48,537 nt of DNA from a virus: IMG/VR virus record IMGVR_UViG_3300021376_002614, positions 1 to 48,537 of that record; one strand, written 5' to 3'. Shown here in pieces: positions 2,009 to 33,356 of the stretch (position 1 is the stretch's first letter; each line of letters opens with the position of its first letter). A program made the translations under genes and the position numbers. The notes under the pieces were generated by a model, which made no database searches, was not told where the DNA came from, and worked only from the letters and a program-made list of their open reading frames with translations.

Positions 2009-2356
2009 ATGGACGAACGTCTAGAAAAGGCATTAGAGTTTGCCAATTTTATGGTTACACTCAATAATCAAAAAAGAAGCCTTAAAGAAAAATATCGAAG
2101 CGATTGTGTTTATTATCAAAGTGGTGGTACATTTACAATTACTAAAGAATTAATTACTTTTGTTAAAGCGTTAGTTGATTTGGAAAATACTACTGACGTT
2201 GTTGTGATTGATGATAATGAGTTACCGATTCGTGTAAGTGATTTAAATCAATTTTTGTCAGATATTATAGATCAATATTTTCTAGCAAGTAATAGTTATT
2301 ATCTAGAATATCAAAATTTAAAAAAGAATAGATCAGTAGAGGCGCTGGTTAAATGA
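2009..2356 (+). CDS. Small hypothetical protein
   Basis: 115 residues behind a strong GGAGG ribosome-binding site. It is mostly helical and charged, with an internal segment (TDVVVIDDNELPIRVSDLN) that looks like a short beta-alpha unit. I recognise no family. Its stop overlaps the next start by 4 bases (ATGA), so it is translationally coupled to the glycosyltransferase-like gene. It opens the coupled chain that runs to 14686. Its size and place suggest a small phage accessory or chaperone-like protein, but no function can be assigned. Confidence 0.6.
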   Translation: MDERLEKALEFANFMVTLNNQKRSLKEKYRSDCVYYQSGGTFTITKELITFVKALVDLENTTDVVVIDDNELPIRVSDLNQFLSDIIDQYFLASNSYYLEYQNLKKNRSVEALVK

Positions 2357-4002
2357 GCCAAGGGGTGCTGATTTACGCTCTTAATAATGAGCAGCTTGAT
2401 TATGTAGAGCTAGCTTTAAATTCTGCTCGATTAGTTAAACAACATCTAGGTAAAGAAGTTGCCCTTGTTACCGATAGTTACGATTGGATGAAACATCAAT
2501 ATCCAAACTATAAAGATTTTGTTGATATAGTAATTAAGGTAGTATATGAATCAAATATATCTAATTGGACTCCATACTATGAATTTGCAGTCGGTGACAA
2601 GGTGTATTATAACAATAGCATATGGGTTAAAAAATTTCCAGGGCCAGAAACTTTAAACTTAATCACAGGTGAAGAAATTAGTAGTGAGGATCTTAATCAT
2701 AATTTAGATAATTATTCAAGGGTTTATCAAGGCATTGATATAGATAAGTGGTATCCTAATTTACCTTATCTTGCTGGCCAACATGTCTGGTATGATGATG
2801 TTTTATATAGATGTGAAGTTGGATACATTGAGGATGATAAATTTTCTAAAGACAAATATACTGTATTATTAGAAAATGTTAAAGATTTATCTAATGCTAA
2901 TTTAAAAAGAATTGAGACAGGCGATATAGTTTTGCATGAACGATCTTTATGGCAGTCTAAACTTACCTATGGTTTAGAAATTGATCAAATCATTGCTAGT
3001 TATAATACTGATAATTTAAGTCGTGTTTATCAAGGCATTGATATAGATAAGTGGTATCCTAATTTACCTTATCTTGCTGGCCAACATGTCTGGTATAAAA
3101 ACACGTTATATCGATGCAAAGAAGATTATCAAGAAAGCAATGAGTTTGATAATTCAAAATATGTTATTTTACTAGAAAATGTTAAGGATCTAATTAAAAT
3201 TAATATTTTTAATAAAGGTGACGTTTTACTTTTTAATAGAGTACTATGGCAAGCTAATACAGATTATGATGATGCTAAAATCTATAAAGGTTATATTAGA
3301 AATGATCTTTGGGAAGATACTAAAGAACGAGAATTAGTTTATGACGCTTCTCCTCAATATCGCAGATATTTTGACGGTGCTATGACTCATAAACGGTTAA
3401 AATTTAAAAATGATATCAGAGTTAAAAGTTTTGAATTAAGTCCGTTCGATAAAACTCTAGTGATTGATTGTGATTATTTGATAAACAATAGCTTATTAAA
3501 TTATTGTTGGAAACAAGAGCATGATTTTTTAATAAGCAAAGAGGGTGTAGATCTATGTGGATTTAGGTATGATCCAAGGTTACATAGTTTAAGTGACAAA
3601 TCTATCGATTTTTATTGGGCTACTGTATTTTATTTTGAAAAAAATTCTAATACAGAAACTTTTTTTAATTTGTTAGGGCATATACAAGATAATTACAATT
3701 ATTATAGATATGTCTATCAAATTCAACATAGTCTTTATCGTAATGATTATGCTTTTAGCATAGCAATTCATATAATGAATGGTTATCAAAAAGGATTATG
3801 GACACATAATCTTCCAGGAATGCTGTATTATACAATAGATAAGGACGTATTGTTAAAGCATAATGATACTACTTTAACATTTTTAGTTGAAAAAGAAAAA
3901 TATAAAGGAGAATATACCTTTATGAAGACTAAAGATATTAGTGTTCATGTTATGAATAAATTTAGTGTTTCTAGAGTAATTAGAGAAAATATTAATGAAT
4001 AA
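2353..4002 (+). CDS. GT8-like glycosyltransferase split by carbohydrate-binding-like repeats
   Basis: 549 residues. Residues 1-62 (GVLIYALNNEQLDYVELA, then VALVTDS) match the first Rossmann half of the neighbouring GT8-like protein at 3995. From about residue 330 the transferase fold resumes (SPQYRRYFDG), with a DxD-type metal and nucleotide-sugar motif VIDCDYL near 370. Between them, residues ~71-325 hold about five W..Y..G..V.Y..x.Y/W units, alternating in two types, that resemble CBM5/12-like chitin or carbohydrate-binding modules. Two of these units are nearly identical. The protein would transfer a sugar in the host cytoplasm; the repeats could bind the acceptor glycan. The transferase family is fairly clear, the repeat assignment is by pattern only, and the acceptor is unknown. 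Confidence 0.7.
   Translation: MSQGVLIYALNNEQLDYVELALNSARLVKQHLGKEVALVTDSYDWMKHQYPNYKDFVDIVIKVVYESNISNWTPYYEFAVGDKVYYNNSIWVKKFPGPETLNLITGEEISSEDLNHNLDNYSRVYQGIDIDKWYPNLPYLAGQHVWYDDVLYRCEVGYIEDDKFSKDKYTVLLENVKDLSNANLKRIETGDIVLHERSLWQSKLTYGLEIDQIIASYNTDNLSRVYQGIDIDKWYPNLPYLAGQHVWYKNTLYRCKEDYQESNEFDNSKYVILLENVKDLIKINIFNKGDVLLFNRVLWQANTDYDDAKIYKGYIRNDLWEDTKERELVYDASPQYRRYFDGAMTHKRLKFKNDIRVKSFELSPFDKTLVIDCDYLINNSLLNYCWKQEHDFLISKEGVDLCGFRYDPRLHSLSDKSIDFYWATVFYFEKNSNTETFFNLLGHIQDNYNYYRYVYQIQHSLYRNDYAFSIAIHIMNGYQKGLWTHNLPGMLYYTIDKDVLLKHNDTTLTFLVEKEKYKGEYTFMKTKDISVHVMNKFSVSRVIRENINE
2722..3096 (+). repeat. Exact 72-base direct repeat inside the glycosyltransferase gene
   Basis: Bases 2722-2793 and 3025-3096 are identical over 72 bases, offset by 303 bases (101 codons). 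They encode VYQGIDIDKWYPNLPYL and the following AGQHVWY. The flanking parts of the two ~100-residue units have diverged, so either selection or recent gene conversion keeps the core identical. Confidence 0.9.
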
Positions 4003-4840
4003 AGGTTATTTAATTTTTGCACAAGATGCTGCTATTAAAAAATACACTAAGTGTGCCTATGCATTAGCTTTAAGTATTAAAAAACAAATGTCTAATGCAA
4101 GCATTAGCATTGTTACTGATAATCAATTGCCTCAAAAATATAATTTAGTTTTTGATAATGTAATACCTGTTCCTTGGAGAGATTTCTCAAATACAGTTTC
4201 AACTACATATAAAACTGAAGACAGATGGAAGTTATATCATTGCAGCCCTTATGAAGAAACTTTTGTACTAGATGCAGATATGCTAGTTCTTTCAAATTTA
4301 GATCATTGGTGGCTCTATCTGGAAAAATATGATGTATTCGTAACCAGTACTGTTAAAGATTATAGATCTAATACGGTTACTGGACGCTATTATAGAAAAG
4401 CTTTTGATTCAAATAATTTACCTGATTTTTATTCAGGATTAATGTATTTTAAAAAGTCTGATTTTGCTAAAGAATTCTTTCAATGGGTAGAAGATATTAA
4501 TAATAACTGGCAGCTTTTTTATGGAGAGTTTGTTAGCCAAAATTACCCTAAGGTTCCTAGCATGGATGTATCTGTAAGTTTAGCAGCAAAAATTTTAAAT
4601 TGTGAAAATAATATATCGCATCAAGGTTCATTGGTAACATTTACACATATGAAATCTTATATTCAAGGTTGGGAAACAGCAACTGAGTCTTGGCAAGACT
4701 CAGTAGGATCCTACTTTAATCAAAATTGTGAATTAAAAATTGGTAATTATCAACAATACGGAGTTTTTCATTATACAGAATATAGTTTTTTAAATGACAT
4801 AATGATTAATCAGTTAGAAAAAAGTTTAGGAATAAGTTAA
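3995..4840 (+). CDS. GT8-like glycosyltransferase
   Basis: 281 residues, starting 8 bases inside the previous gene. It begins MNKGYLIFAQDAAIKKYTKC and has the beta strand SIVTDNQLP and the motif FVLDADMLVLSNLDHWW near residue 90, a DxD motif typical of GT-A retaining transferases (GT8 and related). Later features include SGLMYFKKSD and the His-containing THMKSYIQGW, in the usual positions of acceptor and metal-binding elements. It is a simpler paralogue of the upstream interrupted enzyme. Likely role: transfer of a sugar from a nucleotide donor in the cytoplasm. The acceptor could be a fibre protein, a host glycan or a small molecule. Confidence 0.75.
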   Translation: MNKGYLIFAQDAAIKKYTKCAYALALSIKKQMSNASISIVTDNQLPQKYNLVFDNVIPVPWRDFSNTVSTTYKTEDRWKLYHCSPYEETFVLDADMLVLSNLDHWWLYLEKYDVFVTSTVKDYRSNTVTGRYYRKAFDSNNLPDFYSGLMYFKKSDFAKEFFQWVEDINNNWQLFYGEFVSQNYPKVPSMDVSVSLAAKILNCENNISHQGSLVTFTHMKSYIQGWETATESWQDSVGSYFNQNCELKIGNYQQYGVFHYTEYSFLNDIMINQLEKSLGIS

Positions 4841-5499
4841 TGCTACAAGTTGAATGGGATATTACTGATGAAGAACTTGAAAAATTTAATTCGAGAAATT
4901 CTGTTATCGACGAATTTAGGCATGTGTATTATGATACAGATACAGGTATAATTAAAAGTATCTCAAATGGTCAAGAACTAAACATGCCTTATGTATTAGT
5001 ACACTTTAATCAAGTAAAAGATATATTAGAAGGCAAGGATCATGTTGAAAATTATAAAATAATTTTCTCTCCAGATGATAAAGATTTTGTTTTTATTAAA
5101 AAAGATGACGAAGAAGACACATTCCAAAGCATTGATGAAATAATTTTCCAATTACCTGCTATTGTAGATACCTCTTATCCTTTACAATATGATCCTTTTA
5201 ATGATATAACCATTGTCCAAGATTATACTGAAACGTGCTGGAAAATTTATATGAATGGGTCACTGGCTATTAGTCTTAAATCAAAGCATTTGTATTTTGA
5301 TAAAGAATTTCATTTTTATATTACAGCCTATAATGATCCTAATATTTTATACAAAACTATGATGATTCCTATTAAAGACCTAGTAGATAACTTTTATCAT
5401 ATTATGCCCTTTGATTCTATAGATTATAATGAAACTAAGGTTAGCATATTTACTAGAAAAATTTTTACTAAGTATCAGTATATTAAGACCAAGCTGTGA
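4840..5499 (+). CDS. Hypothetical protein in the modification operon
   Basis: 219 residues. ATG overlaps the previous stop by one base (TAATG), implying translational coupling. The sequence is acidic and beta-rich (VEWDITDEELEKF; VQDYTETCWKIYMNGSLAIS; FHFYITAYNDPN), without transmembrane segments or a recognised motif. The alternating strands suggest a beta-sandwich or binding domain. Its position between glycosyltransferase-like genes suggests a role with them, for example as an acceptor or accessory protein. I do not recognise the family. Confidence 0.6.
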   Translation: MLQVEWDITDEELEKFNSRNSVIDEFRHVYYDTDTGIIKSISNGQELNMPYVLVHFNQVKDILEGKDHVENYKIIFSPDDKDFVFIKKDDEEDTFQSIDEIIFQLPAIVDTSYPLQYDPFNDITIVQDYTETCWKIYMNGSLAISLKSKHLYFDKEFHFYITAYNDPNILYKTMMIPIKDLVDNFYHIMPFDSIDYNETKVSIFTRKIFTKYQYIKTKL

Positions 5500-6410
5500 A
5501 TAAACTTTTTAGACCAATTGACTATGATATTATCTATCTCAGTTATGATGAACCAAATGCTGAAAAAAATTATGCAGACTTATTAACTAAAGTGCCATGG
5601 GCCAAACGTGTCCATGGTGTTAAAGGTAGCGATGCTGCTCATAAAGCTTGCGCAAAATTAAGTGAAACACCTAGATTCACCACAGTAGATGGTGATAATA
5701 TTATAAAAGAAAGTTTCTTAAATGTAGAAATAGATATAAACAAATATCCTACTTTAGAAAACAGTGTTATCAGTTGGAGCGGATACAATGTAATAAACGG
5801 TCTAATGTACGGTAATGGTGGGTTAAAATGTTGGACTGTAGATTTTGTAATGAATATGCGTACACATGAAAATAGTGATCCGTCTGATAAAGTAGGCCAA
5901 GTAGATTTTTGTTGGGATAATAAGTATATACAGATGAATGACTGTTATAGTGATGTATATAACAATGCTACTCCTTTTCAGGCATGGCGTGCCGGATTTC
6001 GTGAAGGTGTTAAAATGAGTCTAGACAGAGGTGCCAAGCTAACAAAAGTAAGTGTAAAAGAAGGAGTACATTGGAAAAATCTTCATAGGTTATTAATTTG
6101 GTGTAATATTGGTACTGATGTTGCTAATGGTATATGGGCAATGTTGGGAGCAAGGCAGGGTTGTTATATGACTAATCTAACTGATTGGGATTATCGTAAT
6201 GTCAGAGATTTTGATTACTTAACTAATTATTGGAAAGAAAACGTAGAAGGTGCAGATTTTACAATAGTAAATTCTAGATTATCTTTTTATGAATCCGAAT
6301 TAAGAAATAATTTAGAATTGGATATAGTTACTTTTGATAGCAATCAATCAAAATTTTTTAAAAAGGTTTATCGAACTCATAATAGAGTAGATTTAATAGA
6401 AAATGACTGA
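5496..6410 (+). CDS. Putative GT-A-like transferase with DGD motif
   Basis: 304 residues. The start is GTG, overlapping the previous stop (GTGA). The N-terminus (DIIYLSYDEPNAEKNYADL, then AKRVHGVKGSDAAHKAC) and the motif TTVDGDN near residue 68 closely parallel the protein at 23066 (VIFISNSEPNADQNW, KRINGITG, WVVDGDA). The DGD is a probable DxD metal/nucleotide-sugar site. Both also share a YGNGGLK / YGYGGVK segment. A glycosyltransferase role is inferred from the DxD-type motif and from neighbours on both sides; no acceptor is evident. Confidence 0.6.
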   Translation: MNKLFRPIDYDIIYLSYDEPNAEKNYADLLTKVPWAKRVHGVKGSDAAHKACAKLSETPRFTTVDGDNIIKESFLNVEIDINKYPTLENSVISWSGYNVINGLMYGNGGLKCWTVDFVMNMRTHENSDPSDKVGQVDFCWDNKYIQMNDCYSDVYNNATPFQAWRAGFREGVKMSLDRGAKLTKVSVKEGVHWKNLHRLLIWCNIGTDVANGIWAMLGARQGCYMTNLTDWDYRNVRDFDYLTNYWKENVEGADFTIVNSRLSFYESELRNNLELDIVTFDSNQSKFFKKVYRTHNRVDLIEND

Positions 6411-7362
6411 GCAATATAATTATATAAAATTAGAACATTCTAATCCTTCCCACAACGACTGGTTTGTTGTAAATTGGTGTCTAGGTAATACTTGTAATTA
6501 TGAGTGTAGTTATTGTCCAGCTGCTCTACACGATGGTAGTAAGCGTTGGCCCGACCCACAAGTTATAAAAAAATTTATAACTAGAGTAAAAAATCATTAC
6601 TTTCACAAAAATATATATTTTGAATTTACTGGCGGCGAAGTTACACTTTACAAAAACTTTATTGAAATCTGTCAATTTTGTACAGAAATGGAAATTAAAG
6701 TTGGCCTTATTAGCAATGGTTCTAGAACCATAAGATGGTGGGAAGAAAATAAACAATATTTTGATCATGTTTGTTTAAGTTATCATCCAGAGTTCGCTGA
6801 CGAAGAACATTTTTTAAATGTAATTAGAGTTTTACACAATGATGTTAGAACTCATGTGAATATAATGATGAGTCCAGAAAAATTTGATAACTGTTATGCA
6901 TTTGCTAACAAGGTTAAAAATTTAGGAAATTTATCTATTGCACTACAGCCTTTAATACATGATTTTGGTGAAGTTTTGTTTGATTATAATGATTTCCAGA
7001 GAAAGCTTTTTACTAAACAACACGAATTAATAACTAGGCATATAAAATTTACCAAGAGTTTTGATTATTATAGAGGCGCAATGAAAATGGTAACCGCTGA
7101 TGGACAGTCAGTAGTTTCAAGCGCTCATAGATTTATTAGCGATAAAGCAAATGACTGGAGTGGATGGAGATGTTATGCCGGTATAGAACAATTGATTGTA
7201 GATATGGATGGCTCTATATTTAGAGGATGGTGCAAAGAAGGTGGGAAGATAGGGCACATAGAAGATGCTAACTTAGGCTTACCAGTTGATCCAGTAGTTT
7301 GTACTAAAAAAATGTGTCATTGTAATTTTGATATAATGAGCACCAAGGAAAAGGTTCAATGA
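6403..7362 (+). CDS. Radical SAM enzyme with C-terminal twitch/SPASM-like domain
   Basis: 319 residues, overlapping the previous gene by 8 bases. The radical SAM core begins near residue 25 with the 4Fe-4S motif CNYECSYC (C31, C35, C38) and the SAM-binding TGGEVTLY. The C-terminal domain carries cysteines at about 257, 277, 300, 305 and 307 around GWRCYAG, VDMDGSIFRGWC and CTKKMCHC, a layout for an auxiliary iron-sulfur cluster. Such enzymes use 5'-deoxyadenosyl radicals to modify peptides, sugars or small molecules. Its twitch-like domain is nearly superimposable on the N-terminal domain of the protein at 21975. Substrate unknown. Confidence 0.85.
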   Translation: MTEQYNYIKLEHSNPSHNDWFVVNWCLGNTCNYECSYCPAALHDGSKRWPDPQVIKKFITRVKNHYFHKNIYFEFTGGEVTLYKNFIEICQFCTEMEIKVGLISNGSRTIRWWEENKQYFDHVCLSYHPEFADEEHFLNVIRVLHNDVRTHVNIMMSPEKFDNCYAFANKVKNLGNLSIALQPLIHDFGEVLFDYNDFQRKLFTKQHELITRHIKFTKSFDYYRGAMKMVTADGQSVVSSAHRFISDKANDWSGWRCYAGIEQLIVDMDGSIFRGWCKEGGKIGHIEDANLGLPVDPVVCTKKMCHCNFDIMSTKEKVQ

Positions 7363-8759
7363 AACAAAAGATAATTCCCATTGTGGACACAAATAACATG
7401 ACTGATCCATTTAACACTATTTGTGATTTAAAATGGAATTATCCTATATTTCATATGGAACGTGGTGAGTTTAGAAGTTGCTGTAGAACTCCTAGCAAAC
7501 CAATCTCAGATGATTTAATAGATAAGTTAGGAACAGATGCTTTTTTAAATAACCCTCAAATGCTACAGTCTCGTCTAGATCTTGTGCAAGGCAGAAGGCA
7601 TGACGATTGCAAAAGCTGTTGGGGCTTAGAAGATACTGGAATGAGTAGCCCTCGACACGATCCCGATAAGTTTTGGTATCAATTACAAAAGATCAAAGTT
7701 ATTTCTGACAATCAATCATATTCAGATGACGCCTTAAGATTAGAAATGTCAAAGATTGATTCTCCTAGTCACAGAGCATTAAAAAGTGATTTCCCTTATA
7801 TGCTTGAAGTGAGCCTTGGTAATACTTGTGATATGAAATGTATGTATTGTAATCACATTTATAGCACACAATGGGCTACTGAGCGTATAAAATATGGTGA
7901 AATTACTCAACAACAATACGACAGAGAGTTTCCTAAAGCTAGTGACAAGTTTGACGAATATTATTGGAAATGGTTTGATACAGTAAAACTTCAATTAGGA
8001 AGGATCGGAGCAATTGGTGGCGAACCTTTAATTATGCCTGAGTTTTATAAATTTATAGAAAAATCAATTGCAGCTATTGAGCCTATAAAGAATAATAGAA
8101 AAAAGAAGATGACTTTCTGGATAGTTACTAATCTTAATACACCTCCTAATTATATTAATAAATTTTTAGAATATCTTCCAAAATTGACAGAGCATTTTGA
8201 TGTAGAAATACTAGGTAGTATGGAAGCTGTTGGTAAAAGAGCAGAATATATAAGGAATGGCCTAGATTGGGACAGATTCAATAACAATTTAGAGAAAATA
8301 TTAGGTAGCAAATATAACTTTGAATTTGGTTTTATTTCTAGTATAAATGCATTAAGTATTGCAACAACAATTGATTTTATTAAATTTACAGAGGAATTAT
8401 ATCAAAAATATAAAAGACCTGTGGCCTTAAAACAAGCTGTAGTAAATTATCCAAGCCATCAAAGCCCATTTATTTTAACTACTGATTTTGCCAAGTATAT
8501 TGATGATACAGTGGCATATATGCAACAAAGGGCAGATATTATGCCTGATGTTAGCGATTATTACGGTCGATGGGATCAGTACATACTGTTTTTACAAAAT
8601 TTAGCAAATAGTATAAGGAATAATAAACAAATACGAATTTCTGATAGGAAGAAGTTTGTTTCTTGGTTTAATACCTTTGATGAACGTAGAAAATTAAATT
8701 TTGTAGAAACTTTTCCTGAATACGAGAATTTTCATAACCTGTGTAAAACCTATGTTTAA
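7359..8759 (+). CDS. Radical SAM protein, N-terminal twitch type
   Basis: 466 residues, ATGA-coupled to the previous gene. An N-terminal Cys-rich region (FRSCCRTPSKP, then DDCKSCWGLEDTG) resembles the twitch auxiliary-cluster domain and precedes the core, as in the N-terminal-twitch radical SAM family. The core carries NTCDMKCMYC around residues 156-163 and GAIGGEPL as the SAM-binding GGE motif. A long C-terminal region (TIDFIKFTEELYQ to the end) completes a TIM-barrel-like fold. Its chemistry is presumably radical-based, with unknown substrate. It is one of four such paralogues in tandem. Confidence 0.85.
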   Translation: MKQKIIPIVDTNNMTDPFNTICDLKWNYPIFHMERGEFRSCCRTPSKPISDDLIDKLGTDAFLNNPQMLQSRLDLVQGRRHDDCKSCWGLEDTGMSSPRHDPDKFWYQLQKIKVISDNQSYSDDALRLEMSKIDSPSHRALKSDFPYMLEVSLGNTCDMKCMYCNHIYSTQWATERIKYGEITQQQYDREFPKASDKFDEYYWKWFDTVKLQLGRIGAIGGEPLIMPEFYKFIEKSIAAIEPIKNNRKKKMTFWIVTNLNTPPNYINKFLEYLPKLTEHFDVEILGSMEAVGKRAEYIRNGLDWDRFNNNLEKILGSKYNFEFGFISSINALSIATTIDFIKFTEELYQKYKRPVALKQAVVNYPSHQSPFILTTDFAKYIDDTVAYMQQRADIMPDVSDYYGRWDQYILFLQNLANSIRNNKQIRISDRKKFVSWFNTFDERRKLNFVETFPEYENFHNLCKTYV

Positions 8760-10152
8760 TAAAAAAGTTTTTGTACCCTTTAAAGAAAACGATGACGGGA
8801 AACATTCTTATGTGTGGTACACGTCAAAATATCTAGATGACAACTATGGTTATGACATAATAAATATAATCAAAAGCTCTAAATATTATGGGCAAAAAAC
8901 ATTTCTTCATGAAGAAGATTATACAGACAAATTAAGAAAACAAGTTCCAGATAATTTTTGTTTGTATCCTTTTACGCATTTTCAATTAGACCCCGACGGT
9001 CGTGCTAGACCCTGTTGTAAGTACAAGGTCGGTGATGCTAGTTGGCAACAGGATGTTCCTAAACTACCTGATGTTAATATTGAAGAATTATGGGAGCAAG
9101 AAGAGTTTCAAAAATTAAGATCAGAGTTTTTAAATAACGAGCGTCCAAGTGGTTGTAAAGCATGTTGGGATGAGGAGGCAGCTGGTATTAAAAGTATGAG
9201 GTTGCAACGGGAAAATGGTGGAAAGGAACATCCTTATGCTACATTTTATCATCATATTCCTAGACTTTATCCTAAGACTTTAGATTTAAAGTTAAGTAAT
9301 TTATGTAATTTAAAATGCAGAATATGCACACCCTTTTTAAGCAGCCAATGGATTAAAGAAATTAAAGATTTACAAGTTCTTGACATGGGTGCAGCTGATT
9401 CTTTTGTAGGTAATTCAAAAGAAAAGTTTTCAGCAAATATTGAAAACAAAGGAATTTTAAAGAAGTGGGCTCCTACTATAGATTTTTTAGAATTTTATGG
9501 CGGCGAACCTTTAATGCAACAAGAGCATGATGAAATTCTTCAAATAATCCATGATTACGGAAAGACATCAAATACAGGATTGTACTATAATACAAATTCT
9601 ACAGTGCTTAAAGAAAAGTTTTTTGAGTTGTGGAAATTGTTCAAAGAAGTAATTATAAATTTTAGTGTAGATGATTGCGGTGCTAGATTTGAATATCAGC
9701 GTAAAAATGCAAAGTGGGAAGAATCTTTACACAATATGCAAATGTTTAGAGAATATGGTAAAAAGCATGGAGTCAATTTAGATCTTAGGATCTATGTTAC
9801 AGTTGGAGTGTTAAATGTTTTTTATCTTAAAGAATTCTTTGACGAAATTCGTAATTTAGGAATTAAAATAACATTAAATATGGTTCATTATCCATATCAC
9901 TATGCAATAACAATTTTACCTACTAGCATTAAAGATATTATTCGAGATAAATTACTAACTATAGATACAGATATAATTAGGCAAGATTCATTACAGATTG
10001 ATAATATTATAAAATTTATGTATAATACTAAATACAATTCCCAATTATTAGAAACATTTTGGAAGAAAACTGAAATCCACGACGGATATAGGAATGAGTC
10101 ATTCGAAAATATCTTTTCTGAATTTTATAATTTGTTGAAAGGGTATAAATGA
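8752..10152 (+). CDS. Radical SAM protein, N-terminal twitch type
   Basis: 466 residues, starting 8 bases inside the upstream gene. After a ~65-residue unique N-terminus comes the twitch signature FCLYPFTHFQLDPDGRARPCC, then LWEQEEFQKLR and GCKACWDEEAAG. The radical SAM motif NLCNLKCRIC lies at about residues 183-192, with EFYGGEPLM for SAM binding and FSVDDCGARFEYQR typical of the family. It is closest in layout to the protein at 11494. Substrate unknown; probable cytoplasmic iron-sulfur enzyme. Confidence 0.85.
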   Translation: MFNKKVFVPFKENDDGKHSYVWYTSKYLDDNYGYDIINIIKSSKYYGQKTFLHEEDYTDKLRKQVPDNFCLYPFTHFQLDPDGRARPCCKYKVGDASWQQDVPKLPDVNIEELWEQEEFQKLRSEFLNNERPSGCKACWDEEAAGIKSMRLQRENGGKEHPYATFYHHIPRLYPKTLDLKLSNLCNLKCRICTPFLSSQWIKEIKDLQVLDMGAADSFVGNSKEKFSANIENKGILKKWAPTIDFLEFYGGEPLMQQEHDEILQIIHDYGKTSNTGLYYNTNSTVLKEKFFELWKLFKEVIINFSVDDCGARFEYQRKNAKWEESLHNMQMFREYGKKHGVNLDLRIYVTVGVLNVFYLKEFFDEIRNLGIKITLNMVHYPYHYAITILPTSIKDIIRDKLLTIDTDIIRQDSLQIDNIIKFMYNTKYNSQLLETFWKKTEIHDGYRNESFENIFSEFYNLLKGYK

Positions 10153-10817
10153 AAATAGGAATATTTGGTTGCAGTTATGCAGATGAGAACAGTTCGCCGT
10201 TACCTGAAATGCATCAAAAATCCTCTAAGCCATGGGCTCGTCTGTTAAGAGAAAATTATAATCATGATGTAACAAACTTTGGAAAAAGTGCTAGTTCTGT
10301 ATTTTTTAGCTATCAAAATTTTTTAAAACATTATCATGAATTTGAAAAGAATATTATAATAGTAACAACAACGGCTAGGCTTTACTTACCTCAAAATCAA
10401 AAGCATCCTCATTGGACCGTAAATTATAAGGAGGCACAACATAAGGTAGGTTATGTAATTGCAAAATTCTATTTCGAAAATATTTTCAACCCAATAGAAT
10501 ATGACCATTATCGAGAATTGATTTTAGAAAAATTACGAACATATAAGAATACATTAGTGATAGATGTAAACGAAGCTTTAGGGTTTATTGCACAAAAAGA
10601 ATATAATTTTTTTCAAGAGACCTTTTTAAATAAAATATCTATGATGAATGACAATAGGTATAATCATCTAAGTGAGCAAGCAAATGTATATGTTGCAGAT
10701 CAAATTCAAAAATGGATAGAAACAAACGAATTCAGTTTAAATGTTAAAGATTTTCCTTTACCAAGATCAGAGGATGCTGAAATATATTTTCCAAAGGATA
10801 TTTTAAAAAAAATATGA
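10149..10817 (+). CDS. SGNH-hydrolase-like protein, copy 1
   Basis: 222 residues. It starts with MKIGIFGCSYADENSS, where GCS replaces the GDS nucleophile block of SGNH/GDSL hydrolases. A later FGKSASSVFFSY matches the Gly-containing block, and RYNHLSEQANVYVADQI near the C-terminus gives the His of the catalytic block in an NH rather than DxxH setting. SGNH enzymes often add or remove acyl groups on sugars. The fold is likely and catalysis less certain. It lies ATGA-coupled between two radical SAM genes and has a twin immediately downstream. Confidence 0.65.
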   Translation: MKIGIFGCSYADENSSPLPEMHQKSSKPWARLLRENYNHDVTNFGKSASSVFFSYQNFLKHYHEFEKNIIIVTTTARLYLPQNQKHPHWTVNYKEAQHKVGYVIAKFYFENIFNPIEYDHYRELILEKLRTYKNTLVIDVNEALGFIAQKEYNFFQETFLNKISMMNDNRYNHLSEQANVYVADQIQKWIETNEFSLNVKDFPLPRSEDAEIYFPKDILKKI

Positions 10818-10875
10818 AAATAGGAATATTTGGTTGCAGTTATGCAGATGAGAACAGTTCGCGGTTACCTGAAAT
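10149..10875 (+). repeat. Duplicated 5' ends of the SGNH-like twins
   Basis: Bases 10149-10197 and 10814-10862 are identical over 49 bases, followed by one mismatch and another 12 identical bases. The copies are 665 bases apart. Identity falls sharply afterwards, so the shared stretch is far better preserved than the genes around it. Confidence 0.9.
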
Positions 10876-11497
10876 AAACGATAATGGACGATCGTGGAGC
10901 TCTGTTCTTAGAGATCGAAACTACAATATTACCAATTATGGGGCATCTGGATCATCAGTATACTATTCTTATAACTTGTTTAAACAATATTCTCAACTAT
11001 ACGATAAAATTATTTTTGTAGTAACTTCGGCTCAACGAATAACAATTAGAGATCCTAAAGAAGAAAAAAATTTCCTATACCTTACTTCTTGGAGTACTAT
11101 TACAGAACAAATTAGCCAGTATATGAAAAAAATTGGAGTTTATGAGGCCGTAAAACTTTATTTTGAATACATTTATAATGACGAAGAAGCAAATGATTAT
11201 CGAGATTTAATTATTAATTTTTTATCTAGTCAGCCAAATATTTTAGTGTTAGATATAAAAGATCTTTTAAAGATATCTAGAAAAGATTATGATTTTTATA
11301 AAAAGTTGTTAAATGAAGATATTCATAATATGCATAAATTTATTGACAACAGATATAATCATATAAACAATGAAAACAATATTATACTAGCGAATCTAAT
11401 TGAAGAATGGATTGAATCTGGAAATTTTAATTTTTCTTTTGATAAATTTGTAAATCCTAAATTGGACGATTACAAAAAATATTTTATTAAGATATGA
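10814..11497 (+). CDS. SGNH-hydrolase-like protein, copy 2
   Basis: 227 residues, overlapping copy 1 by 4 bases (ATGA). It has the same MKIGIFGCSYADENSS start, the GASGSSVYYSY block and DNRYNHINNENNIILANLIEEW carrying the probable catalytic-block His. The first 49 bases are identical to copy 1, whereas the remainder has diverged strongly. This pair may act as a heterodimer or on two acceptors. Function by family: possible O-acyl transfer or hydrolysis on glycans; unproven. Confidence 0.65.
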   Translation: MKIGIFGCSYADENSSRLPEINDNGRSWSSVLRDRNYNITNYGASGSSVYYSYNLFKQYSQLYDKIIFVVTSAQRITIRDPKEEKNFLYLTSWSTITEQISQYMKKIGVYEAVKLYFEYIYNDEEANDYRDLIINFLSSQPNILVLDIKDLLKISRKDYDFYKKLLNEDIHNMHKFIDNRYNHINNENNIILANLIEEWIESGNFNFSFDKFVNPKLDDYKKYFIKI

Positions 11498-12666
11498 ATA
11501 GCCTACCTGAAACTTTTTGTGCATTACCTTGGATAAACTTATCCACAGATGTTAATGGATCTCTTAGACCTTGCTGTAAGTTTGCGCAACCAAGTTTGAA
11601 TAATGAATATCAACTTCCTAATATGAAAGAAGGAAGTTTAGATGTTTTATGGAATGATCGACGATATCAAGAGTTACGCCAAGCATTTCTTGAAGGAAAA
11701 AAACCAACTGAGTGTAAAAGTTGCTGGGACGAAGAATCTGCAGGAATGGCAAGTTTTAGAGTTCAATTCGCTAAAGATAAAAAAATTGATCTAACTAGCT
11801 TAGAATTTAATCCTATTACAAGCTATGGGCCAAAAGCATTAGATCTAAAATTGAATAATGTTTGTAATTTAAAATGTCGAATTTGCGGAACACAAGCATC
11901 TTCTACATACTTAAAAGAATATCAAGAAAGACTTAATATAAAAATAGAAGATAGCTCTTATTGGTTATCTAATAAAATTTTAGGTACTGAAAATGAAGAT
12001 GTAATTAAAGAATGGGCTAATAATTTAATACATTTAGAAATTACTGGAGGAGAACCTATGGCATCTCCAGAGAATATAAAAGTTTTAGAGCTCTTAATTG
12101 ATGCAGGAAGATCTTCTTATATAACAATACTATTGAACACAAATGCTACTTTATATAACAAAAAATTTATAGATTGTCTTACAAAATTTAAAGAAGTTAC
12201 TATTTGTCTTTCTATAGATGATTTGCACGGTAGATTTGAGTATGAAAGATATCCTGCAGAATGGAAAGTTGTTCAAGAAAATTTACAAAAGTTTATAACC
12301 CTACGGGCAAATAATAAAAATATATTTTTGACATTATGTCCTACAGTGAGTAATTATAATGTTTATTATCTAAATGAATACTTAGAGTGGAGCGAGCCTT
12401 TGGGTATTTTTACTTATTTTAATATTTTACATTATGATCCGGCTTTTAGCATAAAAAATTTACCTAATGAAGTCAAGCACATCTTAAATCATAAGTTACA
12501 AAATCGTAAGTTTGAAAAAATTAAAAATTTTTTAAATTTGCCTCAAGATAGAGACGGCATGGTCTTTGATTTTATCAACAAGACGATTGTAATAGATAAA
12601 TGGAGAGAACAAAATTTTAGGACAGTGTTTGGAGAATGGGGCGAAGTTATATGGAAACTTAGATGA
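11494..12666 (+). CDS. Radical SAM protein, N-terminal twitch type
   Basis: 390 residues, ATGA-coupled. It opens directly with the twitch signature FCALPWINLSTDVNGSLRPC and CKF, then LWNDRRYQELRQAF and ECKSCWDEESAG. The core motif NVCNLKCRIC lies near residues 122-131, with LEITGGEPMAS for SAM binding and ICLSIDDLHGRFEYER further on. This is the clearest member of the N-terminal-twitch radical SAM family in the window. It shares most motifs with the protein at 8752, from which it is separated by the two SGNH-like genes. Substrate unknown. Confidence 0.87.
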   Translation: MNSLPETFCALPWINLSTDVNGSLRPCCKFAQPSLNNEYQLPNMKEGSLDVLWNDRRYQELRQAFLEGKKPTECKSCWDEESAGMASFRVQFAKDKKIDLTSLEFNPITSYGPKALDLKLNNVCNLKCRICGTQASSTYLKEYQERLNIKIEDSSYWLSNKILGTENEDVIKEWANNLIHLEITGGEPMASPENIKVLELLIDAGRSSYITILLNTNATLYNKKFIDCLTKFKEVTICLSIDDLHGRFEYERYPAEWKVVQENLQKFITLRANNKNIFLTLCPTVSNYNVYYLNEYLEWSEPLGIFTYFNILHYDPAFSIKNLPNEVKHILNHKLQNRKFEKIKNFLNLPQDRDGMVFDFINKTIVIDKWREQNFRTVFGEWGEVIWKLR

Positions 12667-13796
12667 ACAAGCTAACTGATACACAACTAAAAGAATATAA
12701 CTTGAAAAGGCAAGAATTTGATAAGTCAAGAACTATTAATACTATTAGTCCTTGCATTGCTGCACATAATAATATGTATTTTGATACAGAGGGAAGAGTA
12801 GCACCATGTTGGTTGTTAGTAGGGCATGTTGATCAATACAGCTCATCTAGGTCAATGAAAGACATATGGTTCGGAAATGAATTTTCTACTATTAGAAAGA
12901 ATTTAGAAAACGGTATATTTGAAGACCAATGTAGGATTTGTAAGCAAAAAATTGAAGCAGATACATGGCCTCTAGCATTAGCCTATGATGGGTTTTCTAT
13001 TAAAAAATACCCTACTTTGTTAGAATTAGAATTAAGCAATCAGTGTAATTTAGAATGTGTAATGTGTGAAGGCCGGCTTAGTTCTGGTATCAGGAAAAAT
13101 AGAGATAAACTTCCCCCCTTGCCAATGATGTATGATAATTCTTTTATAGAGCAATTAAAAGAATTTATTCCTCATTTGGAAGAACTTAGGTTTAACGGCG
13201 GAGAACCTTTTGCTCAAAAAATTGTTTTAGACATTTGTATGCTAGTTGCAGAGATGAAACCGGAGTTAAAAATTAATATTGCTACAAATGGCACTGTTTA
13301 TAATAAACAGGTTAAAGCAATATTAGAAAAATGTAATCTACACTTGAACATAAGTATTGATAGTCTTACTAAAGAAATTTATGAAGCTGTTCGTATTAAC
13401 GGAAATTTTGATGATCTAATGGAAAACTTTTTGATATTCAAAGAATATTGTCAAAAAAACAATCGTGGCCTTAGTGTAATGGTAAATCCTATGAGGGACA
13501 ACTGGTGGGAAATGCCCAAATTTGTAGAATTTACGAATAAACATTTAGTCCATCTTTGGTATAATACCATACATCATCCTGAGCATTTAAGTTTATGGAG
13601 TTGGTCTAGTGAAAAGTTAAAAGAAATTATTGATGCTCTACAACCAGAGGTAGATAGACTTAAACCACTGGATTATGAGAATCATGTTGCTTGGGGTAAC
13701 TGGAAAAAGCTAGATCATTTTTTAAATAATCAAATCACTAACTGGTATAATAAACAATTAGAAAGAGAAAAAGTAATTAGGATTCAAAAAGTATGA
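12663..13796 (+). CDS. Radical SAM protein, N-terminal twitch type
   Basis: 377 residues, ATGA-coupled. The N-terminal domain has MYFDTEGRVAPCWLLVGHVD and DQCRICKQKIEADTWPL, a divergent twitch domain. The radical SAM motif NQCNLECVMC falls near residues 126-135 and the SAM-binding motif is LRFNGGEPFAQ. NIATNGTVYNKQ and NISIDSLTKEIYEAVR are typical core elements. It is the last of four consecutive N-twitch paralogues interrupted only by SGNH-like genes. Likely iron-sulfur radical enzyme with unknown substrate. Confidence 0.85.
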   Translation: MNKLTDTQLKEYNLKRQEFDKSRTINTISPCIAAHNNMYFDTEGRVAPCWLLVGHVDQYSSSRSMKDIWFGNEFSTIRKNLENGIFEDQCRICKQKIEADTWPLALAYDGFSIKKYPTLLELELSNQCNLECVMCEGRLSSGIRKNRDKLPPLPMMYDNSFIEQLKEFIPHLEELRFNGGEPFAQKIVLDICMLVAEMKPELKINIATNGTVYNKQVKAILEKCNLHLNISIDSLTKEIYEAVRINGNFDDLMENFLIFKEYCQKNNRGLSVMVNPMRDNWWEMPKFVEFTNKHLVHLWYNTIHHPEHLSLWSWSSEKLKEIIDALQPEVDRLKPLDYENHVAWGNWKKLDHFLNNQITNWYNKQLEREKVIRIQKV

Positions 13797-14686
13797 AAAA
13801 GATTATTTTAAATGGATGTAGTTGGATCGCAGGAGACGAAATTGTATGGAAAGAATTTTGCGAAGAAAAAGGCCTTGAAAATGAAGATTTTATGACATTT
13901 TCTGAAAGGTACGGAGGTACAGAAAAGAAACACTTGATAACATATTATAGAACCGTGTGGAGAAAAAATCATAATCAAGGGTCGATGTTATCAAGAATGC
14001 TCGAAACTCAAGTTATTGATTTAGCTATTGACGGTAATTCTAACGACGGAATAGCTTTAGGGACTATAAACTATGTTAATACCATTCCAGTAAATGAAAG
14101 AAAAGACTACCATGTAGTAATAGGATGGACAATATTAGAAAGAAAGGCACTATGGTTAGACTATTACTGGGATAATTGTAATTATTCTCATTATACAGAA
14201 AAACAGGGTAACTGGTCAAGATGGAAAAATAGGATTTTAGGTGGTATAATTGAGAATACTGATAATGATTGGTATCTAAGTTACTATAAGAATGTAATAA
14301 TGTTAGAAAGTTTTCTTAAATCTAATGATATGACTTATACTTTTTATCGTAGCTTAGGATCAAAGGATCAATTTTTCTTTAGGCCGGACAAAATCGGCAT
14401 AATCAAATCTAAAATGTTTTATACTCGACAGCCTATACCTATATCAACATTAAATTTTCATAATCTTAGACCGGAATTTATAGATAAAGATAACTGGTTT
14501 GTATTTTTTGATAGAGATACAGATTTGCCTTTTTGTAGTGATTCTTGGACTCGATATTGCGAGTCGATATATGATTTTGACGAATGGGTGATTAGACCGG
14601 AAAATAGACATCCTAACAAAAACTGTACAGAAAATTTGTCAAAACGGTTAAGCGATTTTATTTTAGAGAGGAAATACTTAGAGTAA
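13793..14686 (+). CDS. SGNH-hydrolase-like protein, long form
   Basis: 297 residues, ATGA-coupled to the last N-twitch gene and closing the chain. It begins KKIILNGCSWIAGDE, a block I-like motif with GCS in place of GDS. AIDGNSNDGIAL resembles the Gly/Asn blocks, and ENRHPNKNCTENLSKRL near the C-terminus fits the catalytic His block. It is Trp-rich (WTILERKALW; GNWSRWKN), which may indicate carbohydrate contact. The 3' end overlaps the convergent gene by 9 bases. The SGNH assignment is by motif; the reaction is unknown. Confidence 0.6.
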   Translation: MKKIILNGCSWIAGDEIVWKEFCEEKGLENEDFMTFSERYGGTEKKHLITYYRTVWRKNHNQGSMLSRMLETQVIDLAIDGNSNDGIALGTINYVNTIPVNERKDYHVVIGWTILERKALWLDYYWDNCNYSHYTEKQGNWSRWKNRILGGIIENTDNDWYLSYYKNVIMLESFLKSNDMTYTFYRSLGSKDQFFFRPDKIGIIKSKMFYTRQPIPISTLNFHNLRPEFIDKDNWFVFFDRDTDLPFCSDSWTRYCESIYDFDEWVIRPENRHPNKNCTENLSKRLSDFILERKYLE

Positions 14687-17218
14687 CTTTTTATAAATTT
14701 CTATAGATTCTTCAGAGGCTATTTTAGAATAATGTTCGTGATTTATACTAAATTGATTCATTAGTTCTTCAAAATTTATAACTGGGTAAACAATGAAAAA
14801 TCCTCCTACCTCAAGGTTAGATATATATTCTTTTTTGATATAGGAACTGTAATATGTGTTAAGAAATAACACATTATAAGATTCATTAACTGTATGATTA
14901 ATTGATACCTTTTCTGTGTGTTTAATAATCTTTTCTACTAGCGAACTACTGGTAATGTTATTTTTAAGGGTTAATTTTAAATCATCTAAAAATGACTCAC
15001 CTACAGAGTTATCTAACCCTTGTTCTCTACAAATATCAGAGATTTGATAAGGCAACCAAGATTGAAGATTATTAAATTCTTGATTAAAGTTATAATCTTT
15101 AAAGTTAATAAAAGTAAAAACCTTATCGACATTAGGGGAGCTTGAAAAGATAGATGCTCTACCGCCCATATCGCCATAACTTTCTAAAACTTTACTATTA
15201 CTTGGGAGACGACTTACTAATTTATGTAGTAGCAAGCGATCCTTAATGCCCAATCCAGAGAAACAACCATTAAAGGTTAATACGCTTTTTTCTATTTGTT
15301 GTTCTTGTTTTATAAAGATAGTTTTTTTAGGTCGAACTTTTTTACCATCAGTCCACTGTCCTTGTGAAGTATAATGGTGAGTGAACCCGTCTGTCTTGAT
15401 AACATTTTTAAACTTATTAACAAATTTATAATAACTGTCCACTACGTAGTTCCCGTTATCATCTATCTTAAAGTTTATTTTAGCAGTGTATTCCATTGTA
15501 TTAGGAACTATAGCAAATATAAAATCCTTATGATCCAAGTCTTCATTAAAGTTAATAGTAATTTCATATCCGCCCTTAACTCTATACAGAATCCTTAGAA
15601 GGTTAAAAACTTCATTCATCACCGAATTGGCAAAATCACCGAGGGGTGATTGTATGATATTGAAATCAAATGTTTCATATTCAATTTCTTCTGCAATTAA
15701 ATCGTTGGAAAAGTTAACAGTAAAATGATCTGTAATGTTTCCGATCTTATGCACATTTTGTAGAGTTCCGTTAAATTCTCTGCAAAGGTGTAACCAAATA
15801 TGCATTAGCTTAATTCTTATAAATCTATGAAGTTTTGTATTGGTTAAGTCATTAGTGTACCATCCTCCTAGCCATGGCTTATTCCGAGGGTTAATATCAA
15901 ATTTTTCTCTATCATCATATGCAGATCCAAAGTTATCTCCAAGACCGGGACCTGGGCTAACTGCATAAATTCTTGTTCTGTGATTCCATAAAAGATTAAA
16001 ACTGTGATTGAATGCTTCAATGTCTTCGCCTGGAGCTCCAATTACCCAACATGCGCTTACTTTCATTCCAACAGCATGACTGTCTATTATGTTTTGATTT
16101 ATTTCTGCTACTGTATTTTTTTTATTGATAGCTTTTAAAACTTTATCGCTGCCTGATTCAAAACCGTAGTTAAATCCCTGAGCACCAGCATCGGCCATAA
16201 GTTGATATAAATTTAAATCCATTCTGCCATCTGCTCGAGCATAGCCCCACCATTGAATATTCAACTTTCTATCAACAATCTCTTGACAAAACTTTCTAAA
16301 TTCTTTAAGGTTACCATTCATTAGGCTATCAACAAACTGAATAAATCTAATGTCATATTTCTTAACCTGATATTCAATTTCATCGACTACAGTATGGGCA
16401 CCTCTGTCTCTAAATTTCCAATAGTATACTTCAGTGCAATATGTGCATTTGGCTACACATCCTCTACTTATTTCTGCACAAATACTATTTTTACCCCAGT
16501 ACTTTGTTAAATCAAAATCACTGTAATCAGGGTAGGGTAGGCTATCGATGTCTATCCTTGTATCACTATATAAACTACCGATGTTTTCAGTTTTTGGTTT
16601 GATACCATTTTCCCAGTTGTTTAGAAAATCTAAGATATTTTGTTCGCTTTCCCCGACAAAGTAATAATCAACATTATCTGGTTTTTTAAAATATCCTTCA
16701 TGGCATTCAGGTCCGCCTAAGATAATTGTAACATTTGGTTTTCTTTTTTTAATTTCATTAATCACCCATTTTGTGGGCAAGATATTAGTGTAGTATGTAC
16801 TAAACCCTATTATATCTGATTCTTCCTCTAAAATTTGATCAATATAGGTTTTTAAAATTGGTTCGTAAGTTGGATGAATTCTTGAATAATACTCCGGATT
16901 TTGCCACCAAAAATAGTTTGCTCCATTCCATGCATCAGATAAATTTTCATTAGCGTCTTTTAAATCATAATGGGATTCTACATTAAAGTCAAAAACTCTT
17001 GTATAATATCCTGCTTCTCTTGTTAAAGCAGACAATCGAGCTATATTATATGGTGGCATATAAATGGCCCAACTGCCTAAAATGCAAAGTGTAAGCCTTG
17101 TTTTACGAGATGAAGTATCTACCGATACTGATTTTACATTAAGTCTAGGTCTTCTAACTTTTCCTGCGTCTAGATTCTTGGGAAATATTTCCTGAGCAAT
17201 GAAGGTATCTTTATCCAT
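14678..17218 (-). CDS. Cobalamin-type radical SAM enzyme fused to a methyltransferase-like domain
   Basis: 846 residues, the longest non-polymerase gene. Residues ~40-215 form a B12-binding-like Rossmann domain (LCILGSWAIYMPPYNIARLS; IIGFSTYYTNILPTKW; IILGGPECHEG) without the DxHxxG base-off motif. The radical SAM core has SRGCVAKCTYC (C254, C258, C261), then FVDSLMNGN, GYARADGRMD and the FESGSDKVLKAINK stretch usual in this class. From about 640 a C-terminal domain with VLESYGDMGGRASIF and YNVLFLNTYYSSY resembles a class I methyltransferase fold, though its SAM motif is degenerate. It may methylate or rearrange a glycan or peptide. It is convergent with the SGNH-like gene. Confidence 0.8.
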   Translation of the reverse strand: MDKDTFIAQEIFPKNLDAGKVRRPRLNVKSVSVDTSSRKTRLTLCILGSWAIYMPPYNIARLSALTREAGYYTRVFDFNVESHYDLKDANENLSDAWNGANYFWWQNPEYYSRIHPTYEPILKTYIDQILEEESDIIGFSTYYTNILPTKWVINEIKKRKPNVTIILGGPECHEGYFKKPDNVDYYFVGESEQNILDFLNNWENGIKPKTENIGSLYSDTRIDIDSLPYPDYSDFDLTKYWGKNSICAEISRGCVAKCTYCTEVYYWKFRDRGAHTVVDEIEYQVKKYDIRFIQFVDSLMNGNLKEFRKFCQEIVDRKLNIQWWGYARADGRMDLNLYQLMADAGAQGFNYGFESGSDKVLKAINKKNTVAEINQNIIDSHAVGMKVSACWVIGAPGEDIEAFNHSFNLLWNHRTRIYAVSPGPGLGDNFGSAYDDREKFDINPRNKPWLGGWYTNDLTNTKLHRFIRIKLMHIWLHLCREFNGTLQNVHKIGNITDHFTVNFSNDLIAEEIEYETFDFNIIQSPLGDFANSVMNEVFNLLRILYRVKGGYEITINFNEDLDHKDFIFAIVPNTMEYTAKINFKIDDNGNYVVDSYYKFVNKFKNVIKTDGFTHHYTSQGQWTDGKKVRPKKTIFIKQEQQIEKSVLTFNGCFSGLGIKDRLLLHKLVSRLPSNSKVLESYGDMGGRASIFSSSPNVDKVFTFINFKDYNFNQEFNNLQSWLPYQISDICREQGLDNSVGESFLDDLKLTLKNNITSSSLVEKIIKHTEKVSINHTVNESYNVLFLNTYYSSYIKKEYISNLEVGGFFIVYPVINFEELMNQFSINHEHYSKIASEESIEIYKKLL

Positions 17219-17224
17219 ATTAAC

Positions 17225-18001
17225 TTACCATCTCCAGTTGACTGAGTTTTTTGTAAAAGTCATCGCCGAAAGGCGATCATGATCAAATGTTATCGACTGA
17301 TTAATTTGAGGGAAAAATTTTGACAATGCTGTAAATGAATTTGCAGTGTTACTTTTATCAACGTGGTTAGACTTTTTTCTTAAGAAAATAGACATTTCAT
17401 ATGAGTAAAAATTAATTGCTATTTCCTTACAATCAAATCCTGAGCTAATCAAATGATAAATCATTATGCCTATGCCTAATTTGTTGATGTGTCCATCGAC
17501 TAAATGTTCTATATTATTATACTCATTATATGGAACTGTTAATGCTAATATGCCCTCCTCTTTTAGATCGACAAAGACCTTATCTAAAAAAATTCCAGGA
17601 TTTCGTAAATGCTCGAATACATGAGAGCACCAAATTACATCAAATTGTCTGTTAAAAGTAATATCTAGATAGTCTTTTTTGTAATCTGGTTCTAACACTG
17701 CAAACTCTTGTGATTTAGGAGACATATCATATGGTTCTATAGAAATAGTTTCTTTTCCTAAAAACTTAAAAATTTGTGTAATCTGTCCATCTCCACTACC
17801 GATATCTAAAAATGAATCAAATGTATGATGTTCTTTTAATAAGGCGATAATGTTTTGATGAGCAACCCAAGAATAAAATATTCGCTCATTACCTTTGTAA
17901 TTTATTTTATATATAAACGATTCATATGACCAGGGTTGGGGCATTGATTCGGCCCTCACAATTCCGTCAGCTATGTCAAAGTTATACTTGATTAATTCCA
18001 T
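17225..18001 (-). CDS. Class I SAM-dependent methyltransferase
   Basis: 258 residues. The Rossmann SAM motif FLDIGSGDGQITQIF near residue 65 is followed by an acidic strand end (ISIEPYD) and a motif IV-like DVIWCSHVFEHLRNPGIFL, the HVxEHL signature of Methyltransf_11/23-type enzymes. It ends 6 bases before the downstream radical SAM gene start and begins one base after the upstream stop, so it belongs to a four-gene minus-strand unit. The substrate is probably a sugar or small molecule, judging from neighbours. No DNA-methyltransferase motif (DPPY-type) is present. Confidence 0.85.
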   Translation of the reverse strand: MELIKYNFDIADGIVRAESMPQPWSYESFIYKINYKGNERIFYSWVAHQNIIALLKEHHTFDSFLDIGSGDGQITQIFKFLGKETISIEPYDMSPKSQEFAVLEPDYKKDYLDITFNRQFDVIWCSHVFEHLRNPGIFLDKVFVDLKEEGILALTVPYNEYNNIEHLVDGHINKLGIGIMIYHLISSGFDCKEIAINFYSYEMSIFLRKKSNHVDKSNTANSFTALSKFFPQINQSITFDHDRLSAMTFTKNSVNWRW

Positions 18002-18002
18002 A

Positions 18003-19524: not shown

Positions 19525-19557
19525 TGTATATTCTACTATTTTGTTCTATATTTACTC

Positions 19558-19565
19558 GATAAATA
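19558..19565 (+). promoter_or_regulatory. Late-promoter-like element
   Basis: GATAAATA, one mismatch to the T4-type late element TATAAATA, lies 28 bases before the start codon of the plus-strand gene at 19594 in the divergent gap 19525-19593. Activity is inferred from spacing and motif only. Confidence 0.4.
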
Positions 19566-19593
19566 AAACTAATTAATTTTTCAAAGGAATATT

Positions 19594-20271: not shown

Positions 20272-20366
20272 TTTTTAACATTTGATGTATGTTCTCGTAC
20301 AAGTGCTTTGGACGAGCAGTTGTAAAAATAATTAGGCATCCGTTTTCTGCCATGTCTTTAATTTTT
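20252..20366 (-). pseudogene. Out-of-frame remnant of a HAD phosphatase domain
   Basis: The nucleotidyltransferase gene ends in frame just after HAD motif I (FCDIDGT). Skipping one base in the T7 run at 20362-20368 opens a frame continuing IKDMAENGCLIIFTTARPKH and YENIHQML to a stop at 20252. TTARPK is a good HAD motif II. The frame then stops, overlapping the convergent gene, so the C-terminal HAD motifs are missing. Either a one-base indel (real or from sequencing) broke the domain or frameshifting restores it. Confidence 0.7.
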
Positions 20367-21886: not shown

Positions 21887-21900
21887 TTATTTCTCAGCAA

Positions 21901-23054: not shown

Positions 23055-23062
23055 TATTTATA
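23055..23062 (-). promoter_or_regulatory. T4-type late promoter element
   Basis: On the minus strand the bases read TATAAATA, a perfect match to the T4 late -10 element, 30 bases before the ATG of the gene starting at 23024. There is no need for a -35 box in this class. It sits in the short divergent gap before 23066. Confidence 0.55.
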
Positions 23063-33332: not shown

Positions 33333-33356
33333 TACTCGTCCTCTCCATGGAATTCA

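Follow-up and report, generated by a model that had tools for sequence, protein, structure and literature searches.

Among described phage systems, one of the nearest precedents is the host recognition cluster of pelagimyophages, in which GT8 genes and cassettes of radical S-adenosylmethionine (SAM) genes occur together (PMC7029224). A T4-like environmental genome, TARA_ERS488813_N000010, has also been reported to carry 12 radical SAM genes (PMC5332604). The DNA considered here is a 48.5-kb linear virus record of IMG/VR, IMGVR_UViG_3300021376_002614, taken at its full length (positions 1 to 48,537) and called the window hereafter. A sequence-only reading of it, made without database searches, had singled out a chain of twelve genes, A to L, rich in radical SAM, SGNH-like and glycosyltransferase-like enzymes. 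Following it up with relatives, family profiles and structure predictions, this chain appears as part of a conserved pathway, late and cytoplasmic, in a large aquatic phage of the T4 kind, a pathway which may well make a radical-tailored glycan, carried most likely by the tail-fibre proteins of the phage itself.

The chain is borne out in every junction. Genes A to L are twelve open reading frames (ORFs) on the plus strand (2353-14686), where successive junctions overlap by 8, 1, 4, 8, 4, 8, 4, 4, 4, 4 and 4 nucleotides (nt), i.e., by the 1-8 nt first noticed, and the small gene g0 (2009-2356, +) overlaps A by 4 nt on the upstream side. A search of viral contigs with K returned 73 loci (individual loci are designated below by L numbers), of which the 31 at least 60% identical to K were compared for gene order; because several are near-duplicates (L023/L024, L027-L029, L032/L033 and L045-L047), the independent loci are fewer than 31. 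In about 30 IMG/VR contigs and a 229-kb relative, the core order E-F-G-J-K-L is kept and converges on genes M to T of the minus strand. Throughout the 31 loci, J lies directly upstream of K wherever there is room, G comes before J, the two being separated by no more than a few cargo genes, and M converges from the opposite side, except in L045-L047. Of 129 pairs of neighbouring core genes across relatives, 116 overlap, and contigs of 88-230 kb from this group hold 5-13 radical SAM matches each, mostly in one block. Random gene content across relatives, set beforehand as the outcome that would count against the proposal, was looked for and a conserved order was found instead; since order and coupling both recur, the chain is not a chance arrangement. 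In two relatives (L009 and L010), a domain like that of D and its paralogue U is even fused ahead of E, which together with the conserved order and coupling supports the idea of one pathway. It is correspondingly most improbable that these are loose auxiliary genes tied to iron-sulfur metabolism, with no single pathway among them; the T4-like genome with 12 radical SAM genes is discussed in such terms (PMC5332604), but the constant gene order, the coupling, the fusion and the existence of four orthologous families that separated long ago all speak against it. As for the limits proposed at first, 2353-14686, the chain within them is real but they are too narrow: the same theme extends to the fibre genes fib1 and fib2, to g0, to a convergent minus-strand block M-T (14678-23024) and to genes U and V (to 24281), and the unit spans about 2.0-24.3 kb.

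Five radical SAM enzymes had been counted in the chain, namely E (6403-7362), F (7359-8759), G (8752-10152), J (11494-12666) and K (12663-13796), all on the plus strand, and each indeed possesses intact CxxxCxxC and GGE motifs. The M-T block, which points toward L, holds two further ones on the minus strand, i.e., M (14678-17218), with the CxxxCxxC motif, and T (21975-23024), with both motifs. The profile PF04055 is above its cut-off for all of these radical SAM proteins except F, E scoring 43 bits and T 54 bits. M is a B12-binding radical SAM protein with a C-terminal extension (PF02310 and PF04055 above cut-off) and its relatives are 60-61% identical. E and T are paralogues with a homologous auxiliary Cys domain placed at opposite ends, C-terminal in E and N-terminal in T, the domain order of T being thus permuted relative to E. 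The N-terminal-twitch enzymes F (248 bits), G (338 bits) and J (304 bits) pass the 170-bit cut-off of the NCBIfam family N_Twi_rSAM (NF033640), while K, with 146 bits, is below it and represents a relative rather than a strict member. Among these four enzymes K is conserved best, aligned relatives being 71-75% identical, and its homologues at about 50-58% identity in other T4-like viruses are accompanied by what look by eye like a SPASM-less radical SAM protein and a stand-alone SPASM-like piece. F, G, J and K form four separate clades (support at least 99/98), with average identities of 54-74% within and 23-33% between clades; as judged from these alignments, they are four old, separately kept orthologous enzymes. 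Concerning characterised enzymes, the twitch domain of J-type enzymes matches BtrN (E 8e-5), the matching segment being C-terminal in BtrN (165-237) and N-terminal in the J-type (5-79), and M matches AprD4 (E 1e-6); both matches are partial and the reactions are not transferable. BtrN and AprD4 both come from aminoglycoside-type biosynthesis.

Radical SAM enzymes with SPASM or twitch domains act mostly on peptides. In line with this, the radical step could take place on protein, with the radical SAM enzymes altering side chains of the fibre proteins (or of g0 or C) and the transferases glycosylating those residues. Sub-threshold matches of the radical SAM proteins to the peptide maturases PapB and WgkB, as well as the linkage to fibre genes, agree with such a scheme, which is still judged unlikely given that the overlapping chain leaves no room for a gene of precursor size, that no RRE/PqqD-type Pfam match was obtained, that the twitch domain is nearest to BtrN, an aminocyclitol enzyme, and that the surrounding genes, in phages as in bacteria, belong to sugar pathways. 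The hallmarks of ribosomally synthesised and post-translationally modified peptides, namely a short precursor gene or an RRE domain, were not found, the former being looked for within the overlapping chain; a long or remote precursor is conceivable. Peptide modification, which the sequence-only reading had listed among its options, is thus supported by no precursor gene but keeps some probability.

The genes exchanged around the core, here called cargo, tell of sugars. The cargo slots of relatives hold carbamoyltransferases, sulfotransferases, methyltransferases, nucleotidyltransferases, a cytidylyltransferase, a mannose-6-phosphate-isomerase domain, HAD and APH proteins, together with SGNH-like proteins and further radical SAM proteins. 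A genome scan with K found no bacterial relatives, and a scan with J-type enzymes did find bacterial members, whose 120 neighbour genes include 29 other radical SAM genes, 5 GT2, 4 PhyH and 2 each of carbamoyltransferase, RmlD, GDP-mannose dehydratase, epimerase, methyltransferase, APH and GDSL genes; TylF also occurs among the bacterial neighbours of this family. These neighbourhoods fit the sugar theme, an agreement that is qualitative. In the Vibrio phage K566, NF033640 enzymes alternate with GT8 genes that are above the PF01501 cut-off. Cargo, bacterial neighbours, the K566 pairing and the matches to BtrN and AprD4 therefore point to sugars, and the substrate of the pathway is very probably a sugar. 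Of the proposals made at first, modification of the fibre or of a host surface glycan is accordingly upheld by the cargo, the bacterial neighbourhoods and the K566 pairing insofar as a glycan pathway is concerned.

Some similar arrays are filed under bacteria. L123, L125 and L126 are recorded under metagenome-assembled genomes of Rickettsiales, Pelagibacter and Betaproteobacteria, and are probably viral contigs in bacterial bins; L123 and L125 each combine four to five radical SAM genes of the twitch type with a GT8-like gene and an SGNH gene, and L125 adds a carbamoyltransferase. In L130 and L140, from uncultured bacteria (Bdellovibrionales for L140), twitch radical SAM genes stand in tandem; one of the two arrays neighbours ATP synthase genes and the other large membrane proteins.

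Two GT8-like proteins had been announced at the head of the chain. B (3995-4840, +) has the fold of GT8/glycogenin (AlphaFold pTM 0.87; against glycogenin, Foldseek E 8.5e-10 and profile E 1.5e-4) as well as a DAD motif at 93, and A (2353-4002, +) is homologous to B; on the other hand, neither matches the Pfam GT8 family PF01501 at E 0.1, B is 14-18% identical to GT8/glycogenin, and the GT8-like domain of A contains two inserted CBM5/12-like modules (PF02839, E 1.9e-4, below cut-off). These modules occupy one insertion place and vary in number, with none in L014-L019, one in L013, two in the window and three in L012; their repetition is seen in the protein, the DNA of A yielding no repeat when searched for tandem copies. 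D (5496-6410, +; pTM 0.82), first described as a transferase-like protein with a DGD motif, is a candidate GT-A glycosyltransferase: the motif is invariant among relatives and the best fold matches are GT-A enzymes, but these matches are weak (E 5e-4, TM about 0.3). When 50,697 phage records were searched by tblastn with B and D, neither found a match. The SGNH-like assignment of the three proteins H (10149-10817, +), I (10814-11497, +) and L (13793-14686, +) stands on motifs, GCSY and DNRYNH in H and I, with no family profile match beyond a weak, sub-threshold one of L to DUF6071 (PF19547, E 6e-4). H and I are in a variable cargo slot, proteins similar to H being present in L013, L042 and L082, while L belongs to the core and the same slot in relatives is occupied at 30-36% identity. 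C (4840-5499, +) is a conserved protein to which no function is assigned (29-66% identity in L012, L013 and L016), family searches of the window proteins giving no match for it; homology with c44, a small protein filling the slot of C in other phages, seemed plausible by eye and was rejected since profile comparison did not support it.

To which molecule the glycan would be attached is suggested by the position, timing and solubility of the system. Upstream of the chain lie fib1 (181-1041, +), the C-terminal part of a fibre protein that matches phrog_19602 (tail fiber, E 4.6e-8) and whose ORF is left open by the edge of the window, fib2 (1060-1956, +), a fibre-like protein with no family match but whose place just before g0 is kept in relatives, and g0 itself, a conserved protein of 115 amino acids with no function assigned (56-84% identity in L012-L019, with a distant form in the L031-L089 group). 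Homologues of fib1 are found upstream of the block in L012, L013, L016, L196 and L197. In the two large relatives L196 and L197, the order is a protein of more than 4,000 amino acids, a protein of 206-208 amino acids, fib1, fib2, g0 and then the block, which thus follows directly on the fibre genes. The ORFs upstream of the fibre genes in these relatives (L196, 7326-19898; L197, 3-13394) encode at least 4,190 and at least 4,463 amino acids, respectively, and are probably giant fibre or tail proteins.

With respect to timing, the motif TATAAATA, the T4 late-promoter core, lies 15 nt before fib2 (1037-1044, +) and 30 nt before T (23055-23062, -). It is rare in the window (3 seen against 12 expected) and, across the group, 13 of its 32 copies are within 80 nt upstream of a start where 1.1 are expected; for five control words with a comparable composition the counts are 93-123 each, of which 3-13 are upstream of starts. 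Sigma-70-like sites showed no excess over shuffles and an Rfam search gave no match. By hydropathy, no transmembrane segment was found in A-V (no 19-residue hydrophobic segment above 1.6), and as such no flippase or membrane transferase is present. A late, soluble pathway for glycan synthesis and radical tailoring is considered highly likely. Late, soluble and fibre-linked together suggest a virion target, and the virion fibre is a probable acceptor, at about even odds.

Two other targets have to be weighed against the fibre. Following the proposal of Zaragoza-Solas and colleagues for the glycosyltransferases of pelagimyophages, made for similar host recognition clusters (PMC7029224), the host O-chain or capsule could be remodelled to block superinfection or to aid release. 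The sugar-nucleotide and tailoring enzymes do resemble those of lipopolysaccharide or capsule loci, but no transmembrane protein is encoded by A-V, the linkage to fibre genes is strict, and late-promoter motifs stand before fib2 and T though exclusion would be expected early; neither the membrane flippase nor the lipid-linked transferase of gtr-type O-antigen modification was found in A-V. Remodelling of the host glycan is therefore regarded as improbable. The enzymes might otherwise decorate bases of the phage genome, as phages are known to use glycosyltransferases on bases and as QueE- and GTP-cyclohydrolase-like genes are present in the window; these genes sit in a separate region (31953-43391), however, and it is with fibre genes and late-promoter motifs that the cluster is associated, so that DNA hypermodification by this cluster is very unlikely. 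Within that separate region, 31953-34520 and 41805-43391 hold a QueE-like radical SAM gene (phrog_2076), a GTP cyclohydrolase gene (phrog_2197) and, by eye and with no family match, a TGT/DpdA-like protein, possibly for 7-deazaguanine DNA modification.

Returning to glycosylation of the fibre, several points weigh against it. No sequence feature singles out fib1 or fib2 as acceptors, and two relatives that were checked have no late motif directly before the fibre genes. Since K and M served as search queries, the sampling of loci is conditional on both. A distant member of the family in Paenibacillus (L152) sits among lipid/polyketide-like genes, and the peptide preference of SPASM/twitch enzymes mentioned above makes radical chemistry on fibre side chains possible. 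Both the substrate and the product of the pathway, a glycan, are putative. Finally, the sole published proposal is a change of the host O-antigen (PMC7029224).

If a fibre glycan is indeed made, the pathway would operate as follows, every individual reaction being one that we infer. Sugar donors would be supplied by sugar-nucleotide enzymes, R and S in the window and others in relatives, and three transferases, namely the GT8-type proteins A and B together with D, the one with the DGD motif, would pass the sugars on to an acceptor in soluble form. The radical SAM enzymes E, F, G, J, K, M and T would each introduce one carbon-centred change, i.e., an epimerisation, dehydrogenation, deoxygenation or C-methylation, and the SGNH proteins together with exchangeable carbamoyl-, sulfo- and methyltransferases would finish and diversify the product. 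In its fullest form, put forward tentatively and with some doubt, the proposal is that aquatic jumbo-type phages use at least seven radical SAM enzymes to rebuild sugars on tail-fibre glycoproteins, giving radical-tailored, carbamoylated, sulfated or acylated residues, with exchangeable cargo diversifying the virion surface.

The remaining genes of the minus-strand arm are largely cargo. They comprise N (17225-18001, -), a methyltransferase (PF13489, E 3e-12); O (18003-18821, -), with no family match and no function assigned; P (18808-19524, -), a possible 2-oxoglutarate/iron oxygenase by its HxD motif only, relatives also having proteins like it in their M-T slot; R (20358-21149, -), of the phrog_3980 family (E 1.3e-20) and nucleotidyltransferase-like by eye; and S (21140-21886, -), an APH-family kinase (PF01636, E 1e-6). 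Among them, Q (19594-20271, +) has no family match and no function assigned. Beyond T lie U (23066-23743, +), which aligns with its paralogue D at 30% identity, and V (23667-24281, +), possibly methyltransferase-like, with no Pfam match but with a 45% identical homologue at a corresponding place in L010/L011. Further sugar genes occur on the minus strand at 34529-41578, namely a UDP-glucose dehydrogenase gene (phrog_9148), a GT4-like gene by eye and an alcohol dehydrogenase/oxidoreductase-like pair; positions 36620-37141 match phrog_4786, annotated as cysteine dioxygenase (E 9.8e-37).

Were the pathway confirmed, the protein- or glycan-modifying chemistry encoded by phages would rank with the most elaborate that viruses are known to have, with a conserved core and exchangeable decorations beside the host-recognition fibres, which would bear on the adsorption, host evasion and diversification of aquatic phages. 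It would also provide a first functional setting for the large N-terminal-twitch radical SAM family, common to phages and bacterial sugar-gene neighbourhoods, and, as this pairing of enzymes exists in Vibrio phages that are in culture, the hypothesis can be tested.

Compared with known systems, the locus was first held to be undescribed, which is true of part of it: GT8 and radical SAM genes near pelagimyophage fibres and a genome with 12 radical SAM genes are published, while in the literature searched, covering few subscription journals, no account was found of a conserved seven-radical-SAM core, of the fusion, of exchangeable cargo or of the mechanism, and nothing relevant on virion glycosylation or on tailoring by radical SAM enzymes of phages in combination with sulfo- or carbamoyltransferases. 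The pelagimyophage cluster resembles the locus in that a hypervariable region, found in T4-like marine phages, unites tail fibres with GT8-type glycosyltransferases and cassettes of radical SAM genes; it is however defined as variable and its proposed target is the host O-chain, and the available part of PMC7029224 does not describe a conserved radical SAM core, the SGNH, carbamoyl and sulfo set or the fusion. A pelagimyophage origin of the window was dismissed, as its family B DNA polymerase is nearest, among cultured phages, to the jumbo phages Sinorhizobium Phosso (50%) and Agrobacterium Atu_ph07 (46%); the polymerase of a 229,851-base relative is 61% identical. TARA_ERS488813_N000010 is comparable in being a T4-like marine virus rich in radical SAM genes, which are treated solely as iron-sulfur metabolism in the available part of PMC5332604, with no gene-order analysis or pathway there. 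Regarding NF033640, F, G and J are members and K is close, all with an N-terminal twitch and CxxxCxxC; the family name carries no function and the window differs in having four conserved paralogues side by side. The Vibrio phage K566 block is alike in its NF033640 enzymes beside PF01501 glycosyltransferases and KVP40 in its radical SAM genes, but identities are 22-30%, the order is unlike that of the window, and adjacency to fibre genes is shown for the window and its relatives alone. Seroconversion by gtrABC depends on membrane proteins. The O-antigen seroconversion of prophages by gtrABC is likewise a phage-encoded glycosylation, differing by these membrane proteins, of which A-V has none. 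Phage-encoded glycan modification is thus already known, and there is a real chance that the radical chemistry is what is new here.

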